DNA of 64,000 nt, taken from the NCBI GenBank assembly GCA_019136655.1, contig JAGVTU010000026.1:1-64000 (forward strand), in the 5' to 3' direction. Position 1 is the stretch's first letter; the number at the start of each line of letters is the position of its first letter. The notes beneath the pieces were generated by a model that saw only the letters and a program-made list of their open reading frames with translations, was not told where the DNA came from and ran no database searches. The position numbers and the translations under genes were made by a program. The DNA comes from Bacteroidota bacterium. GTDB lineage: Bacteria; Bacteroidota; Bacteroidia; AKYH767-A; OLB10. Below are positions 3,001-27,602 of this stretch, in pieces.

Positions 3001-3718
3001 CATTATTGGTTATCCTTGCCTCAATGACATGATTTGTTGTAAATCCAACAGGCATACTACCTAGCGTATAAACCTGATTGACACTTGCATCATTCGCTGC
3101 TGCTATTGCAACACGGGTTACGGGACGAAAACTACTCGATGTTAAAGTGGCTGGTAATGAGATATTACTTTGATTTCCCTTTAGCCCATTAGTCAGATTG
3201 GTATTACAACTGACTACACAAGACGTTGAGGTCGAACCCGGATTGTTCCATTCAAAAGCAACGTATAAACCACCTCCTGTATATGTAAACGGGGTTGACA
3301 ACGTTACATCAAAGGTTGTAACCGGTGTGCCGGGCAGGTTATAAGCAGATGAATAAACATTGGTCATTCCTCCAATAGCTGTAGTCCACGTAGTTGATTT
3401 AGTATTTGTTAAATCACTCGTGTTTTCCATGTAAATGGTAAGGTTACCGGAAACTGAAACAGATGCAGCTGTCGAATAAACCCATCCAATGCTTCCCAAG
3501 TTAATGCCTGATGGAATACCTGCAGCTGCAATTTCTGATGCTGTAATCAAATAAACGCTTCGTTCATATCTGAAATTCCCCATTGGTGCCCTGGCATTCC
3601 CTGAAGTGCCGTTACCATTATGTAGTGTTACCGGACATTGTGCAAATGCCGTAGTTAAGTTCATTACTCCCATTGTCATTGTAAACAGAAGCAACCATTT
3701 GTACATTTTTTGTTTCAT
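1..3718 (-). CDS. Giant secreted surface protein with GEVED and Fn3/Ig-like domains; frameshifted, partial at 3' end
   Basis: The protein begins with a signal peptide (MKQKMYKWLLLF...TTAFAQ) and is clearly exported. After an N-terminal adhesin-like part of beta-rich repeats there is a GEVED domain at about residues 572-720 (starts YCIPNY, contains WIDFNQDGSF, ends GETEDY). An Fn3-like segment follows (LSWPSMTGATGYDVYF), then Ig/PKD-like repeats. The first frame (3718 to 1085) stops just after WTGPNGFTSTNQNPTIS. The same protein continues in a second frame (about 1105 to 840, NPNPTLTIIDYQDVGCIGG) and then in a third, which I translated by hand from about 846 to base 1 without any stop. Both junctions are repaired by adding one base, at the T5 run 1102-1106 and the G3 run 847-849. 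T9SS substrates of this type usually end in a sorting domain, which would lie left of the window. It is either a decaying gene or one carrying two sequencing errors. The domain class is secure; the biological target is unknown. Confidence 0.8.
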
Positions 3719-3920
3719 TGTGATTAAAGTTTAAATTGTTAAGAATTCTAATTATTATTTTTAAAGAAGAAAAATGGGCATATTGCATTTTGGACACTAT
3801 TAATCTTTCTGCAACGCACCTGATAGAATTCGATAATTCCTGAAAGGTGGTTATACTTTCGGAAAAACAACCAGTAACTTTTAATTCGCTAAAATGTCAA
3901 TATTATCTACCTTTTAAATA

Positions 3921-4052
3921 CTATTTCAGGCGAATTGTTGTTTCTGCCAACCTCTCTGCACTGGTTGTTAGCTCCATGTTTTTGTTGACCACATCATAGA
4001 AGCTATGAACACAATAAAAAGGTACATCGAACGGCTCAGCGTTAGTACCCAT
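3921..4052 (-). CDS. Possible 43-residue small protein (weak)
   Basis: An ATG-initiated frame of 43 codons lies alone in an 890-base gap. It starts MGTNAEPFDVPFYCVHSF and ends AETTIRLK. Its composition is balanced and protein-like rather than the Ile/Lys/Asn-rich output expected from AT-rich non-coding DNA. A second frame (3968-4084, 38 codons, MTNKNQTLPP..., with a hydrophobic stretch MYLFIVFIASMM) overlaps it on the same strand, and at most one of them is likely to be real. I see no convincing ribosome site or promoter. It could also be the decayed end of a former gene. I do not recognise any family. Confidence 0.2.
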   Translation of the reverse strand: MGTNAEPFDVPFYCVHSFYDVVNKNMELTTSAERLAETTIRLK

Positions 4053-4084
4053 CGGGGTGGGAGTGTTTGGTTTTTGTTTGTCAT

Positions 4085-4607
4085 TGTGTTAGTTGTTAAA
4101 TGGTTAATAGAATTGTTGTAATTGAAACTACAAAATTATTTAAGTACAGTCTCACTAAATTCCTGCAATAGTAAAAAGTCGAAAATAAGATAGACAATTA
4201 CTTTTTATGGATTGAATAGTACTTTCTGAGTCTATGAACTTGGATAGGGTACAATTTTTCATACATAAAGAGTTATAGATTAATCTAAAGAAACTCCGGT
4301 TTGTTTTTTCTGAACCAAATATAAGATGAATTATTGATTAAGCAATCATCTTGTATTATTATCTTTTGTAAATTACCAAGCAAGATTGTAACTAATTGAT
4401 TTTTAAACAAATAATTTTATGCATCAGAACAACTAAGCAACCCGCAGAACAAATGAGTCAAAAAAGGTTGGCAGAAAATATTTCACAGTGAAGTAAACCG
4501 TCCATGTTTTCGGTGGCAAAAGTGCCAGACTCATTACATTCAACTGCTCTAGGTCTGATACACTGCGCACTCTTAATTTGATAAAATAATCTATTGCTGA
4601 CTTATAA
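4085..4607. other. Gene-poor AT-rich interval
   Basis: No convincing gene lies here. A 74-codon frame on the minus strand (4433-4657) runs into the acyltransferase 3' end and looks like chance. A weak imperfect inverted repeat (AAGATGA ... TCATCTT, about 4326-4353) is present without a U-tract. Nothing else is recognised. Confidence 0.5.
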
Positions 4608-19388: not shown

Positions 19389-19880
19389 TTATTTAATTTC
19401 TTTTTTACCAAGCATAACTGCACCAACTATTGCCGTAAGAAAAAGTACTGAAACCATTTCGAACGGCAGCATATATTTATTGTAAAGTACACTTCCTAAA
19501 GTTTCAACCAAACCGATTTCTGAATGCTGATTGATTGCTGCAGCATCTACACCCTTCATGGCACTTACAACTACAATCATCAACAAACCACCGGATATAA
19601 CTGCTGCAAATTTTGCTACAATACTTTTGTTGGGTTCTACTTCTTTATTAAGGTTGAGCATCATAATGATAAAAAGGAATAATACCATAATGGCTCCTGC
19701 ATAAACAATGAGGTGTACTGCTGCAAGAAATTGTGCATTCAGTAAAATATAATGACCAAACAAAGTGAAAAAGAAGAATATCAGATACAACACACTATAA
19801 ACAGGCTTTCGGTTAAATACCGTCATTAAAGCGCTGGCAACTGAGAGGGCAGATAGTATGTAAAATGCGTACTGACTCAC
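19389..19880 (-). CDS. nuoJ: NADH-quinone oxidoreductase subunit J
   Basis: A 163-residue membrane subunit with five hydrophobic helices. The family segment with a pi-bulge region is recognisable as [20 protein letters not shown], and the C-terminus ([15 protein letters not shown]) is typical. Unlike the rest of the operon it is not tightly joined to the upstream gene. About 60 bases separate its start from the inserted lipoprotein gene at 19941-20264. Confidence 0.96.
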
Positions 19881-19940
19881 GATAGTTTAGAAGTGTAAAA
19901 CCGGTGCGAAATTATATTTTTATTCCTAATTTAATAATGC

Positions 19941-20264
19941 TTATTCGTTTGTTTTTTCAGGGCAAACATAAATATCGGTAACAGCAACATGTACTTTATG
20001 CTGAGGGTAATACAGGCTGTTGGATTCATATTCATATTTTTCCTCTTTAAATTTATCATCTTTAAACTCAGCTTCTTTATCACATTTAGTAAATGTCTGA
20101 ACTGTATCTGCTGGAATGAGATAGGGGCTGAGGGCAGTATCTGTGTAAGTGCACAATTCCGAACGAATGATATAACAGTCTCTGCAAACATCCTTATCGC
20201 ACGATTGCAACAATGCAGCAGCAACAATTGTCAAAGGCAGTAATATTTGTTTTATTCCGGTCAC
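19941..20264 (-). CDS. Uncharacterised Cys-rich lipoprotein inserted in the nuo operon
   Basis: A 107-residue protein read from a GTG that directly follows the nuoI stop (TAAGTG). It has a signal peptide with a lipobox (IVAAALLQSC), so the mature protein would be lipid-anchored from Cys22. The mature part is short, hydrophilic and rich in Cys and acidic/Lys residues. It has a CxxC (CRDC), further cysteines in SELCTY, FTKCDK and DIYVCPE, and a charged stretch (EFKDDKFKEEKYEYES). Six or seven cysteines in 86 residues could form disulphides or bind a metal. Complex I operons do not normally carry a gene here between nuoI and nuoJ. I recognise no family. Zero-base spacing to nuoI implies co-translation. 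It could be a periplasm-side accessory factor or an unrelated passenger. Confidence 0.75.
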   Translation of the reverse strand: MTGIKQILLPLTIVAAALLQSCDKDVCRDCYIIRSELCTYTDTALSPYLIPADTVQTFTKCDKEAEFKDDKFKEEKYEYESNSLYYPQHKVHVAVTDIYVCPEKTNE

Positions 20265-20813
20265 TTAACTTTCTATTTGGCGATGTGCTCTTGCACGAAC
20301 ACTGATATCAATTCTTTTTTCAGGTTCTATTCCTTCAACAAGTTTGTCTTTTCCAAAAATAAAATCATCCCGCAGCAAATCTACCGGCACGTTTCTGTCG
20401 GTAAGAAAAATTGCTTCTTTGGGGCAGGCTTCTTCGCACAATCCGCAGAAAATGCAACGCAGCATGTTGATTTCATATACAGCTGCATATTTTTCTTCGC
20501 GATACAGATTTTCTTCTCCGGGTTTTCTCTCAGCTGCAGTCATGGTAATGGCTTCGGCAGGGCAAGCTACCGCACACAACCCGCAGGCCGTGCAGTTTTC
20601 TCTTCCCAACTCGTCACGCTTCAGCACATGCCACCCGCGCCATACCGGTGCTACCGGTCGTTTTTGTTCCGGATATTTAATGGTAACTTTCTTTTTAAAT
20701 AAATGCTTCAGAGTAATCATCATCCCTTTTGCTATTTCAGGGAGATAGAGTTTTTCCATAAAACTCATTTTTTTGTTGACGACTACTTTGCTTCTGTTTG
20801 TTAAACTTTGCAT
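20265..20813 (-). CDS. nuoI: NADH-quinone oxidoreductase subunit I
   Basis: The 8Fe ferredoxin-like subunit that carries electrons to the final cluster N2. Two 4Fe-4S motifs are present: CTACGLCAVACP and CIFCGLCEEACP. The 182-residue frame may start later, at MSFMEKLYLPEIAKG or MEKLYLPEIAKG, which look like a more usual N-terminus. The first 15 or so residues are Lys/Asn-rich and unconserved in appearance. The gene follows nuoH by 42 bases and abuts the lipoprotein gene downstream. Confidence 0.96.
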   Translation of the reverse strand: MQSLTNRSKVVVNKKMSFMEKLYLPEIAKGMMITLKHLFKKKVTIKYPEQKRPVAPVWRGWHVLKRDELGRENCTACGLCAVACPAEAITMTAAERKPGEENLYREEKYAAVYEINMLRCIFCGLCEEACPKEAIFLTDRNVPVDLLRDDFIFGKDKLVEGIEPEKRIDISVRARAHRQIES

Positions 20814-21904: not shown

Positions 21905-22903
21905 TTAGTTGTTATGTGCTTTTTCACCAATCAGTTTCTGCCTTGACAAATCCTGTTTCAACTGCTTCAACTGTTCGTAATGATTTTGTGATATTACCGA
22001 ATGTCTGTCAATATGTCGTGGGCCTTCGATTACCCAGTCTGACAGATTTTTTTTCTCGAAACGACATGTGTTGCATATCCATCCGGGTTTACCGTCTTCG
22101 GTATTTTCTATTTCATGATAAACACCTTTTCTGCCGGTTACACGAAGTACTGCATCACCTGAAACCCACAGTGCAACTCTTCCGCAACAAACATCACAGT
22201 CGCGATGTGCATCGAGAGGTTTGGTAAACCATACACGTGATTTAAAGCGGAATGTTTTATCTGTTAATGCTCCTACGGGACAAACATCAATCATGTTGCC
22301 ACTCCATTCATTATCTATTGCTTTTTCTATATAGGTTGAAATTTCGGCATCCCACCCTCTGTTGAGAACACCGTGTACACGCTCGGGACACAACTGCTCA
22401 GCAACTTTCACGCAACGATAACACATGATACATCTGTTCATGTGCAGTTTTATCTTATCACCGATATTGCGCATCGGGAATGTCCTTCGTCTGAACTCAG
22501 TGCGTGTGCCTTCATCACCATGACCATAACTTAAATCCTGCAGGTCGCACTCACCTGCCTGATCACAAACAGGGCAATCCAATGGATGATTGAGTAACAA
22601 AAATTCAACAACACCTTCTCTGGCTTCAAGAACTTCGGGTGAAGTGATATTCTGGACTTCCATACCATCCATCACTGTTTGACGGCAACCTACTACCAAC
22701 TTAGGCATAGGGCGTGGGTCTTTGTCAGAGCCTTTGGTAACTTTCACCAAGCATGTACGACAATAACCTCCTGATGTTTTTAATGTAGAGTAATAGCACA
22801 TAGTTGGCGGGACAATATCGCCTCCTATTTTGCGTGCTGCTTCTACAATGGTTGTTCCGTCCGGAACTTCTATGGTATGTCCGTCAATGGTAACCCGAGC
22901 CAT
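21905..22903 (-). CDS. nuoG: NADH-quinone oxidoreductase subunit G, short form
   Basis: Iron-sulfur subunit passing electrons from NuoF/NuoE towards NuoI. It contains an N-terminal 2Fe-2S ferredoxin domain (MCYYSTLKTSGGYCRTC, CRQTV), the His-Cys cluster motif HPLDCPVCDQAGECDLQD and a 4Fe-4S motif (CIMCYRCVKVAEQLC ... CPVGALTD). There is then a last Cys-containing block (DCDVCCGRV ... WICNTCRF). At 332 residues it lacks the long molybdopterin-oxidoreductase-like C-terminal domain of E. coli NuoG (about 900 residues). The downstream frame is closed by nuoH, so the domain is absent rather than split off. As far as I know, short NuoG forms occur in other Bacteroidota. Confidence 0.94.
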   Translation of the reverse strand: MARVTIDGHTIEVPDGTTIVEAARKIGGDIVPPTMCYYSTLKTSGGYCRTCLVKVTKGSDKDPRPMPKLVVGCRQTVMDGMEVQNITSPEVLEAREGVVEFLLLNHPLDCPVCDQAGECDLQDLSYGHGDEGTRTEFRRRTFPMRNIGDKIKLHMNRCIMCYRCVKVAEQLCPERVHGVLNRGWDAEISTYIEKAIDNEWSGNMIDVCPVGALTDKTFRFKSRVWFTKPLDAHRDCDVCCGRVALWVSGDAVLRVTGRKGVYHEIENTEDGKPGWICNTCRFEKKNLSDWVIEGPRHIDRHSVISQNHYEQLKQLKQDLSRQKLIGEKAHNN

Positions 22904-22904
22904 A

Positions 22905-24245
22905 TTATATTTCTTGTAAGTTATTAATGCGGTAATAATGTTTCACATCACTCTTACCGTTTTTTATGTATTGTTCAAATTCGCTGCGGAAATGTCTGAT
23001 GGCTGCAGCTACAGGCCATGCAGCAGCATCACCAAAAGGACATATTGTTTTACCTTCTATTTTTCTCTGAATGTCCCACAACAGGTCAATGTCTTTTGTT
23101 TCACCTTTGCCATCGAGCAGGCGACTGAGAATTTTATACATCCATCCCGTTCCTTCTCTGCATGGCGAACATTGTCCACAACTTTCGTGGTGATAGAACC
23201 GTGAGAAGTTCCACACATTTTTCACTACGCTGGTATCTTCATCCATCACAATAAATCCTCCTGAACCAAGCATCGTTCCTGTGGCAAAACCACCTTCTGC
23301 AAGACTTTCATACGTCATCAGTCGTGGTTCACCGTTGGCAGTTTTCAAAATTAATTCGGCTGGCAACACCGGTACTGAAGAACCTCCTGCTACAACAGCT
23401 TTCAGTTTTTTTCCGTTGCGAATTCCTCCGCAATACTGTTCGCTGTAAATAAATTCTTCTACAGGCACACCCAGTTCAATTTCATAAACTCCGGGTTTAT
23501 TTATATGTCCTGATGCTGAAATAAGTTTGGTACCTGTGCTTTTTCCTATTCCAATTTTAGCATACTCTTCGCCTGTTATTCTGATGATAGGTACTACTGC
23601 GGCAATGGTCTCTACGTTGTTTACTACAGTAGGACATCCCCACAAACCTTTTACAGCAGGAAACGGTGGTTTGATACGTGGGTTTCCGCGTTTGCCTTCA
23701 AGCGATTCGAGCAATGCAGTTTCTTCTCCGCATATGTATGCACCGGCACCGCAATGCACATGCAGGTCGAGGTCGAAGCCGCTGCCTAAAATATTTTTTC
23801 CCAAATAACCTGCAGCATAAGCTTCGTCAATTGCTTTTTGCAGAATATGATAAACATACATCATCTCACCGCGGATGTAGATGAATGATGTGTTGGCTCC
23901 CAATGCAAAACTTGAAATAATCATACCTTCAATGAGGATATGCGGCTTGCGTTGCATGAGGTAACGGTCTTTGAATGTACCGGGTTCACTCTCGTCAGCG
24001 TTGCAAATGAGATAGCGTGGTTCTCCGGGAGGTTTGGCCAAAAAACTCCATTTCATTCCTGTGGGGAAACCTGCACCACCGCGTCCGCGAAGCCCTGACT
24101 TTTGCACTTCGGCAACAATATCTTCGGGTTTCATCTGAAGTGCTTTTCTGAGCGATTCATAACCGCCAGTTTCCTGATAGCCGTTAAGTGTATTGATACC
24201 CGGCTTATCTAAATTATCTAAAAGCAGTTGTCGTCCCATTGTCAA
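22905..24245 (-). CDS. nuoF: NADH-quinone oxidoreductase subunit F
   Basis: The NADH-oxidising subunit carrying FMN and a 4Fe-4S cluster, 446 residues. The nucleotide-binding region is [17 protein letters not shown] (about residues 52-68), the FMN region is [20 protein letters not shown], and the cluster ligands are in [11 protein letters not shown] and ICPFGD. Its ATG overlaps the nuoE stop by four bases (ATGA type). Confidence 0.97.
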
Positions 24246-24784
24246 GATTTAATTTTTTCTTTTTCCCAATGTGTTCTGCGCACACCGGCATTTCTGTGTT
24301 CTTCAAGAATGGTATCTACTTTTTCAAGCGTCAGGTTTTCGTGATAGGTTTCGCCAATCTGCATCATTGGTGCTGTTCCGCAACTTGCCAGACATTCTAC
24401 TGTTTTCAGAGTAAACATTCCGTCAGCTGTGGTTTCACCGTTTTTAATTCCTAATTTTTTTTCAATATATCTCACTACATCTTCTGCACCCATGAGCCAG
24501 CATGGACCGGTGTGGCAAACTTCAATCAGACACTTACCAACCGGTTTCAGATTAAACATGGTATAAAACGTAGCCACTTCATAAACTTCTATCGGCTGTA
24601 TTTTAAGAACAGATGCTACATAGTCCATAACTTCAGGACTTAGCCATCCGTCAAACTCTGCCTGCGCAATATGCAATATGGGCAATATTGCCGACTTATG
24701 TTTCCCTTCGGGATATCGCTTGATTATCTTTTCGATGAGTGCAAGTGCATCATCCGAAAATTTTATTTCTTTATTAGTTGCCAC
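24242..24784 (-). CDS. nuoE: NADH-quinone oxidoreductase subunit E
   Basis: Thioredoxin-fold 2Fe-2S subunit that pairs with NuoF, 180 residues. Its four cluster ligands are visible as CHTGPC (C-x4-C) and CLASC (C-x3-C), with EVATFYTMF just upstream. It overlaps nuoF by four bases and follows nuoD by 39 bases. Confidence 0.97.
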   Translation of the reverse strand: MATNKEIKFSDDALALIEKIIKRYPEGKHKSAILPILHIAQAEFDGWLSPEVMDYVASVLKIQPIEVYEVATFYTMFNLKPVGKCLIEVCHTGPCWLMGAEDVVRYIEKKLGIKNGETTADGMFTLKTVECLASCGTAPMMQIGETYHENLTLEKVDTILEEHRNAGVRRTHWEKEKIKS

Positions 24785-24823: not shown

Positions 24824-26047
24824 TTATGCATCCAACTCTCCTGCGATTACATTCATCGAACTCATTGTAAGAATGGCATCGCTCAGGTAACCTCCCTTTA
24901 TCATTTCAGGATAACCCTGATAATAAATAAAACAAGGTCTGCGCATGTGTAAACGATAAGGCGTTCTTCCGCCATCACTCACCAGATAGTAACCCAACTC
25001 ACCGTTGCCACCTTCCACACAATGATATACTTCGCCTTTAGGCACTGATGTTTCTCCCATAATAATTTTAAAGTGATAAATGAGTGCCTCCATCTTGGTA
25101 TATACATCCAGTTTCTGAGGAAGATAGTAATCCGGAACATCAGGAGCAAAGTAAGATGTTTTGTCTTCGAGTTTATCCAACTTCTCCATTGCCTGCTTAA
25201 TAATTTTTATGCTCTCCCACATTTCCTGTTCGCGCACCATAAAACGATCATATGTATCACCATTGGTACCAACAGGAATGATGAAGTCAAACTCTTCGTA
25301 AGACGAATAAGGATTCATCACACGCACATCGTAATCCACTCCGGCAGCACGCAAATTAGGACCGGAGAAAGAATAAGCCAATGCCAACTCCGCTGAAATC
25401 GGACCGCAGTTAATAGTACGATCCATAAATATACGGTTGCGCACCAACAATGCTTCAAACTCTTTCAGACCACGAGGTAAATCTTCAAGCAGTTTTTCAA
25501 TCTTAAGCCATGAAGCCTGATTAAAATCTCTTTCAAGTCCACCTATGCGTCCGATGTTGGTATTCATTCGTGCGCCACAAATCTCTTCGTAAATATCATA
25601 AATGCGTTCTCGGAACTGGAAGATATACAGAAATCCTGTCATGGCACCGCTGTCAACACCAATCACCGAATTGCAAATAATGTGATCGGATATACGCGCA
25701 AGTTCCATGATGATGATCCTTAAATACTCCACACGCTTTGGAAGTTTTATTCCTGCAAGCTTTTCTACTGTCATGTGCCATCCCATATTATTGAGAGGTG
25801 AAGAGCAATAGTTAAGCCTGTCAGTGATGGGAGTTATTTGTCCGTAGGGTCTGCGTTCTGAAAGTTTTTCGAATGCACGGTGAATGTATCCGATGGTTTG
25901 TTCTGTATCTACTACAATTTCACCATCCATTTTAAGCACATTCTGAAAAATACCATGTGTGGCAGGGTGTGTAGGTCCCAGATTAAGGGTTGTATATTCC
26001 TTACTGATGACTTCCTGTTTTGTATCCTGATTAACCTCTTCTTTCAT
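24824..26047 (-). CDS. nuoD: NADH-quinone oxidoreductase subunit D
   Basis: The 49-kDa-type subunit that forms the quinone headgroup site together with NuoB, 407 residues. It begins with the signature LNLGPTHPATHGIF (residues about 20-33), in which the His is part of the quinone pocket. It then shows IGYIHRAFEKLSE, GVDSGAMTGFLY and GGNGELGYYLVSDG. The very C-terminus reads NVIAGELDA, whereas many homologues end in an FGEVDR-type sequence; this is a mild variation. It is a separate gene from nuoC, not the fused NuoCD form. Confidence 0.97.
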   Translation of the reverse strand: MKEEVNQDTKQEVISKEYTTLNLGPTHPATHGIFQNVLKMDGEIVVDTEQTIGYIHRAFEKLSERRPYGQITPITDRLNYCSSPLNNMGWHMTVEKLAGIKLPKRVEYLRIIIMELARISDHIICNSVIGVDSGAMTGFLYIFQFRERIYDIYEEICGARMNTNIGRIGGLERDFNQASWLKIEKLLEDLPRGLKEFEALLVRNRIFMDRTINCGPISAELALAYSFSGPNLRAAGVDYDVRVMNPYSSYEEFDFIIPVGTNGDTYDRFMVREQEMWESIKIIKQAMEKLDKLEDKTSYFAPDVPDYYLPQKLDVYTKMEALIYHFKIIMGETSVPKGEVYHCVEGGNGELGYYLVSDGGRTPYRLHMRRPCFIYYQGYPEMIKGGYLSDAILTMSSMNVIAGELDA

Positions 26048-27182: not shown

Positions 27183-27554
27183 TCATTCCCACTTAAGTGC
27201 ACCTTTGCGAATGATATAAATAAATCCTACCATCAACAAACTTACAAACAGAAGCATTTCTATAAATCCTGTAAGGCCTAGTTTCAGAAAATTAACCGCC
27301 CACGGATACATAAATATCACCTCCACATCAAAAAGTACAAATAATATGGCAATAAGAAAATATTTAATCGAAAATGGTAATCGTGCATTTGATTGTGATT
27401 CGATACCACATTCAAAAGTATCAAGTTTAATTTCTGATTTACGCTTTGGTCCCAGTAAATGTGTAACAAAAATTGTTGTAACAACAAATCCAATAGCAAC
27501 AACAAACATGATGGCTATTGGAATATAATCAGCAGGAATGCTTAAAAAAACCAT
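27183..27554 (-). CDS. nuoA: NADH-quinone oxidoreductase subunit A
   Basis: Three-helix membrane subunit (123 residues) that contacts the quinone chamber. The conserved loop KRKSEIKLDTFECGIES contains the family Cys, and the Asp/Glu in LFDVEVIFMYPWA are present. It is the first gene of the 13.2-kb operon, with a promoter box 20 bases upstream. Confidence 0.96.
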   Translation of the reverse strand: MVFLSIPADYIPIAIMFVVAIGFVVTTIFVTHLLGPKRKSEIKLDTFECGIESQSNARLPFSIKYFLIAILFVLFDVEVIFMYPWAVNFLKLGLTGFIEMLLFVSLLMVGFIYIIRKGALKWE

Positions 27555-27573: not shown

Positions 27574-27602
27574 CAAAGTTAGCCTTTTTCTATAATGCCA
27601 AA
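27574..27602 (-). promoter_or_regulatory. Promoter for the nuo operon
   Basis: On the minus strand TAACTTTG (27581-27574) matches TAnnTTTG exactly. TTTG (27602-27599) lies upstream at a 17-base spacing, slightly shorter than the usual 19-21. It predicts a leader of about 14 bases before nuoA. Confidence 0.5.

Follow-up and report, generated by a model that had tools for sequence, protein, structure and literature searches.

Nqo15 and Nqo16 of Thermus were identified in purified complex I. Both are mentioned as supernumerary subunits of the bacterial enzyme (PMC11522691). For the Bacteroidetes, our literature searches found no lipoprotein in the nuo operons. Here we analyze a window of 64,000 nucleotides from a Bacteroidota genome (contig JAGVTU010000026.1) in which an open reading frame (ORF) for a small, Cys-rich lipoprotein lies between nuoI and nuoJ. 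Judged from its conservation, it is a real, selected and genus-restricted lipoprotein gene of uncultured Bacteroidota that had previously gone unnamed.

Results

The nuo cluster of the window lies entirely on the minus strand, from position 27554 down to 14314, in the order nuoA-B-C-D-E-F-G-H-I-[lipoprotein gene]-J-K-L-M-N. The names other than nuoI, nuoJ and nuoG were assigned by length and order, and nuoD (24824–26047) comes ahead of nuoE (24242–24784) and nuoF. The lipoprotein gene (19941–20264, minus strand) has a GTG start at 20264, a stop codon at 19943–19941 and an ORF of 107 codons plus the stop, for a product of 107 amino acids. Immediately upstream is nuoI (20265–20813, minus strand), identified by its Pfam Fer4 domains. 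Downstream, after a gap of 60 nt, is nuoJ (19389–19880, minus strand; PF00499, E 4e-39), with no second gene of this kind in the genome. The upstream junction reads ...AAAGTTAA/GTGACC, with the GTG directly 3' of the nuoI TAA, and both the ORF coordinates and this TAAGTG sequence agree with the initial annotation of the window. In three of the four species that carry the gene, its start codon directly adjoins the nuoI stop (TAA/GTG); in the fourth, UBA6661, the two overlap. This arrangement suggests translational coupling to nuoI. We also noted that NuoG is short (332 amino acids; 21905–22903, minus strand); the 2Fe-2S and 4Fe-4S domains at its N terminus are retained, and Pfam gave no match to a molybdopterin-like domain.

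The encoded protein begins MTGIKQILLPLTIVAAALLQSC/DKDVCRDCYIIRSELCTYTD..., where the slash marks the predicted cleavage point before the anchor cysteine. Substrates of signal peptidase II were defined by a charged n-region, a hydrophobic stretch and a lipobox of the form [LVI]-x-[SAG]-C in the first 30 residues. The signal peptide (residues 1–21; 20202–20264, minus strand) has an n-region with a lysine, then a hydrophobic stretch and the lipobox LLQS/C (LQS/C), reading MTGIKQILLPLTIVAAALLQS/C; a signal of this kind is conserved in all four species, its sequence drifting. The lipobox proposed in the initial annotation is thus present, as LLQSC, and lipidation and cleavage at C22 are predicted from it. 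The mature domain of 86 residues (19944–20201, minus strand) includes C22, the predicted lipid carrier, and C27, C30, C38, C61 and C101, and these six cysteines are invariant across the alignment of the four orthologues. An earlier count of six or seven cysteines in the mature domain is revised to five plus the anchor, and its description as Cys-rich with a CxxC motif (C27-R-D-C30) is retained. The five cysteines besides the anchor leave room for two disulfides and one free thiol.

Surface lipoproteins of the Bacteroidota carry an export signal (LES) after the anchor cysteine, described as C-X-K-(D/E)2-X in Capnocytophaga or as S-D-D-x-D/E (PMC5080379). The window protein has C-D-K-D-V, with Lys at +3, one acidic residue and Val at +5; as the motifs described so far were found in other families, it may nonetheless be displayed on the surface. 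Because D-K-D-V falls short of C-X-K-(D/E)2, the most likely, default placement is that of an outer-membrane lipoprotein facing the periplasm.

Searches of Pfam, NCBIfam and PHROGs gave nothing above chance for the lipoprotein, and a sequence-profile search of the PDB returned chance matches only and no solved relative, in keeping with its first description as an unrecognized gene. A match to Ribosomal_L40e (E 0.05) was rejected as a chance match to the CxxC motif. AlphaFold2 models built from only four sequences had a mean pLDDT of 43.5 with the full-length alignment and 52.7 with the mature alignment. At most, these low-pLDDT models have a strand that follows the CxxC, a short helix beyond C61 and a hairpin at the C terminus. 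Their matches in a fold search were viral envelope proteins (E around 1), the models being too poor for such matches to carry meaning.

Lipoprotein families of 65–90 amino acids without a Pfam family are widespread in Bacteroidia, often in tandem, with sequences of the kinds SCKKDxTCTC... and CxKCxxC...CGKK... (loci L067, L069, L076 and L218–L246). Both kinds are found side by side, on opposite strands, in L094/L218. The CxC lipoproteins (SCKKDxTCTC...) resemble the window protein in being short lipoproteins of the same class (Bacteroidia) with one mid and one C-terminal cysteine, but they have CxC just after the anchor cysteine, are often in tandem and would not be expected to be linked to nuo genes, whereas the window protein has CxxC and one more cysteine. 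Membership in this group was rejected, as hhalign aligned residues 1–26 only and the mature domains could not be aligned. One member of the group has a sub-threshold match to NCBIfam NF050142, limited to the signal peptide. The CxKCxxC...C-G-K-K...C lipoproteins share with the window protein an anchor cysteine, CxxC, a cysteine just before a short predicted helix and a C-terminal cysteine. Compared with them, however, the mature part of the window protein is approximately 30 residues longer and has an extra cysteine, C38. Membership was rejected in this case too, with an hhalign probability of 1% and a score of 12.5 against a median of 10.9 and a maximum of 21.8 for shuffles with fixed cysteines.

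Orthologues of the window protein were found in Bacteroidetes bacterium OLB10 (91% identical), isolate SZAS-1 (73%) and UBA6661 (64%), in frame and at the same place. Substitutions in the mature part were mainly at third codon positions, with 2/0/17 changes at positions 1/2/3 between the window and OLB10 and 12/8/38 between the window and SZAS-1. Furthermore, the three pairs short of saturation gave dN/dS values of 0.02, 0.09 and 0.14 for the mature part, and by the same comparison the signal peptide was nearly free to change while the mature part was constrained. Read from these alignments, the pattern is what purifying selection on an exported protein leaves behind, and it contradicts the suggestion of a chance insertion, if by that an accident is meant that could be dispensed with.

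The initial annotation had proposed a search for homologues and their position. We found the gene in all four species examined of the genus (OLB10, SZAS-1, UBA6661 and the window genome), always between nuoI and nuoJ, and its linkage to nuo genes therefore spans the whole range of the gene family. Neither of the observations named beforehand as refuting a link to complex I, homologues away from nuo genes or an insertion unique to one strain, was made: our searches returned no homologue away from nuo genes. Among the 24 genomes of the family examined, exactly the four of the genus were positive and no orthologue was found in the other 20, nearly all of which retain a close nuoI. The family has 20 loci with a close nuoI, and 16 of them lack the lipoprotein gene. 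nuoJ adjoins nuoI in 15 of these, and in the remaining one (L008) a gene for a secreted kelch protein directly follows nuoI. When 395 genomes of the class were searched with a profile, matches beyond the genus were weak throughout (E 0.001–0.1), those inspected reflecting chance or signal-peptide similarity. A close-pattern scan of 85,000 species genomes, which reaches close relatives only, recovered OLB10, SZAS-1 and UBA6661 and nothing else. No relative was found in phage, plasmid and viral-contig searches, and no paralogue in the window genome itself. Measured against the NuoI of the window, that of UBA6661 has 81% identity, a value within the 75–82% of NuoI proteins from other genera. Retention of the lipoprotein gene therefore extends over about the age of the genus, a considerable time. 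A second, divergent nuoH-I-J-K cluster (L025–L034), with NuoI about 26–44% identical, is present in several of the family's other genera. Genome G004 has the divergent cluster only, and the window genome has a single nuoJ.

The class yielded 108 nuoI loci, 92 of them with a recognizable nuoJ alongside. The gap between the two genes at these 92 junctions is usually -4 to 90 nt, and a protein-sized gene is present at five: the four of the genus and one in another Bacteroidia genome (L141; 2128–2520, plus strand), where an unrelated gene encodes a 23S-rRNA-IVP-like protein (PF05635, E 1e-32). This bears out the earlier statement that standard nuo operons have no gene at this position. In seven loci (L008, L145, L168, L175, L188, L190 and L198) a close nuoI is followed by a non-nuo gene and the cluster is split there. 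UBA6661 also has a gene for a zeta-toxin-like P-loop kinase (PF06414, PF13671) between nuoH and nuoI (3646–4215, plus strand, in L066, which is 137–706 in L004). Because such unrelated genes and split clusters are found there, the neighborhood of nuoI tolerates passenger genes, and breaks and insertions recur at the nuoI/nuoJ junction within the class.

The gap between the lipoprotein gene and nuoJ is 60–66 nt in the four species and contains a conserved promoter-like sequence, TAATTTCGC. The putative -7 element, TAATTTCGCACC (19903–19914, minus strand), is identical in all four members of the genus, including the diverged UBA6661. The primary promoter of the phylum has a -7 element TAnnTTTG and a -33 element TTTG (PMC6847099, PMC7366714); the element before nuoJ differs from it at one base (TTCG in place of TTTG), and a -33 element is not clearly recognizable there in the window. 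Related operons without the lipoprotein gene have the motif as well. TAnnTT(T/C)GC is present in the nuoI–nuoJ gap of all 11 family operons of this type in which that gap spans 50 nt or more (L012 and L015–L024), 31–56 nt ahead of nuoJ in 10 of them, and it is absent from four family operons with gaps of 19–20 nt. At the window's own rate approximately 0.007 occurrences are expected per 60 nt, a figure to be read with the loci being related and the trials thus not independent. From this conservation we infer a promoter, which nuoJ–N probably has for itself, separately from nuoA–I. Upstream of nuoA, a by-eye reading against the TTTG/TAnnTTTG consensus (PMC6847099) identified the promoter-like TTTG-N17-TAACTTTG (27574–27602, minus strand). 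It matches the consensus more fully than the site before nuoJ and is likely the start of the nuoA–I unit. A sigma-70 promoter scan was set aside as not applicable to promoters of the phylum, and an Rfam search of the nuo region found no element.

Discussion

The gene probably sits at a transcription-unit boundary of the nuo cluster. In the simplest model, two transcripts, nuoA–I and nuoJ–N, would be made; the lipoprotein gene would be the last gene of the former, and the latter would begin a few nucleotides past TAATTTCG. The description of the gene as embedded in the complex I operon therefore holds on the map and has less functional weight than it suggests, as a promoter-like element separates the gene from nuoJ at a break and insertion point.

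We consider it rather probable that the product is a small envelope lipoprotein specific to the genus, that its gene was captured where the nuoA–I unit ends (3'), and that it serves a separate function instead of belonging to complex I. On the stem lineage of the genus, the gene would have entered at the boundary of nuoA–I and nuoJ–N, to be retained for that envelope function. Translation would begin at the nuoI stop by coupling, and the product would be exported via Sec, lipidated on C22, cut by signal peptidase II and, in the most likely case, fixed to the outer membrane with its domain toward the periplasm. Four of the five non-anchor cysteines would form two disulfides holding a small beta-rich domain, and expression from the nuoA–I transcript would tie the level of the lipoprotein to respiration. 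The shared location in four species, the six invariant cysteines and the purifying selection on a mature domain behind a free signal peptide are consistent with this reading, as are the start codon abutting or overlapping the nuoI stop, the conserved promoter-like element before nuoJ, the unrelated genes and split clusters at or near the junction, and the 20 other family genomes that lack the gene while nearly all retaining a close nuoI. Against it are the unbroken nuo linkage in all four species, among them UBA6661 with a NuoI as distant as those of other genera, and the imperfect match of the site before nuoJ to the promoter consensus.

That linkage can also be explained if the Cys-rich domain, held by its lipid anchor, docks onto the NuoH/J/K membrane arm from the periplasmic side and stabilizes or assembles this arm in the genus. 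An invariable nuoI-X-nuoJ order, the stop/start coupling to nuoI combined with purifying selection and the lack of any homologue found away from nuo genes all favor such a role, which we nonetheless regard as unlikely. Of the features analyzed, only position points to complex I, in this explanation as in the assembly or redox accessory proposed initially, and position is weakened by the promoter-like boundary ahead of nuoJ, by the unrelated genes tolerated at the junction and by the other genera of the family, which run a close complex I without the lipoprotein. Furthermore, in a cluster whose genes must remain together, a trapped gene holds its position with or without a functional link. We know of no bacterium with a lipid-anchored, disulfide-rich complex I accessory on the periplasmic side, and that the protein is a genus-specific accessory or assembly factor of this kind seems to us quite unlikely.

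Descent from the small Bacteroidia lipoproteins with a lipid-carrying cysteine, CxC or CxxC, a mid cysteine and a C-terminal cysteine, followed by divergence and relocation beside nuoI, would account for the shared length class and for the similar order of anchor cysteine, CxxC, cysteine beside a short predicted helix and C-terminal cysteine. Such groups are common in the class, with tandem families in many genomes. However, the profile comparison with the CxC group covers the signal peptide only, the mature domain scores below many of the Cys-fixed shuffles against the CxKCxxC group, and the window protein has C38 as an additional cysteine and a longer hairpin region toward its C terminus, which makes this origin improbable. 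A spurious ORF or an assembly artefact could be suspected from the non-ATG start in three of the four species and the lack of a family match, but it is hardly credible given the third-position bias, the dN/dS values and the recovery of the gene in four separate assemblies on contigs of 62–139 kb; its conservation refutes it.

As it stands, the locus neatly illustrates the capture of a lineage-restricted lipoprotein gene at a probable transcription-unit boundary within a conserved cluster of respiratory genes, and it cautions against relying on gene order alone, which is weak evidence for shared function. If the protein were a true part of complex I, the bacterial enzyme would have a lipoprotein component on its periplasmic face, which is rare. 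Like Nqo15 and Nqo16 of Thermus, the protein is small and lineage-restricted, tied in its case to the complex I gene cluster only. In contrast to these subunits, it would be on the periplasmic side and is linked to complex I by gene position alone.
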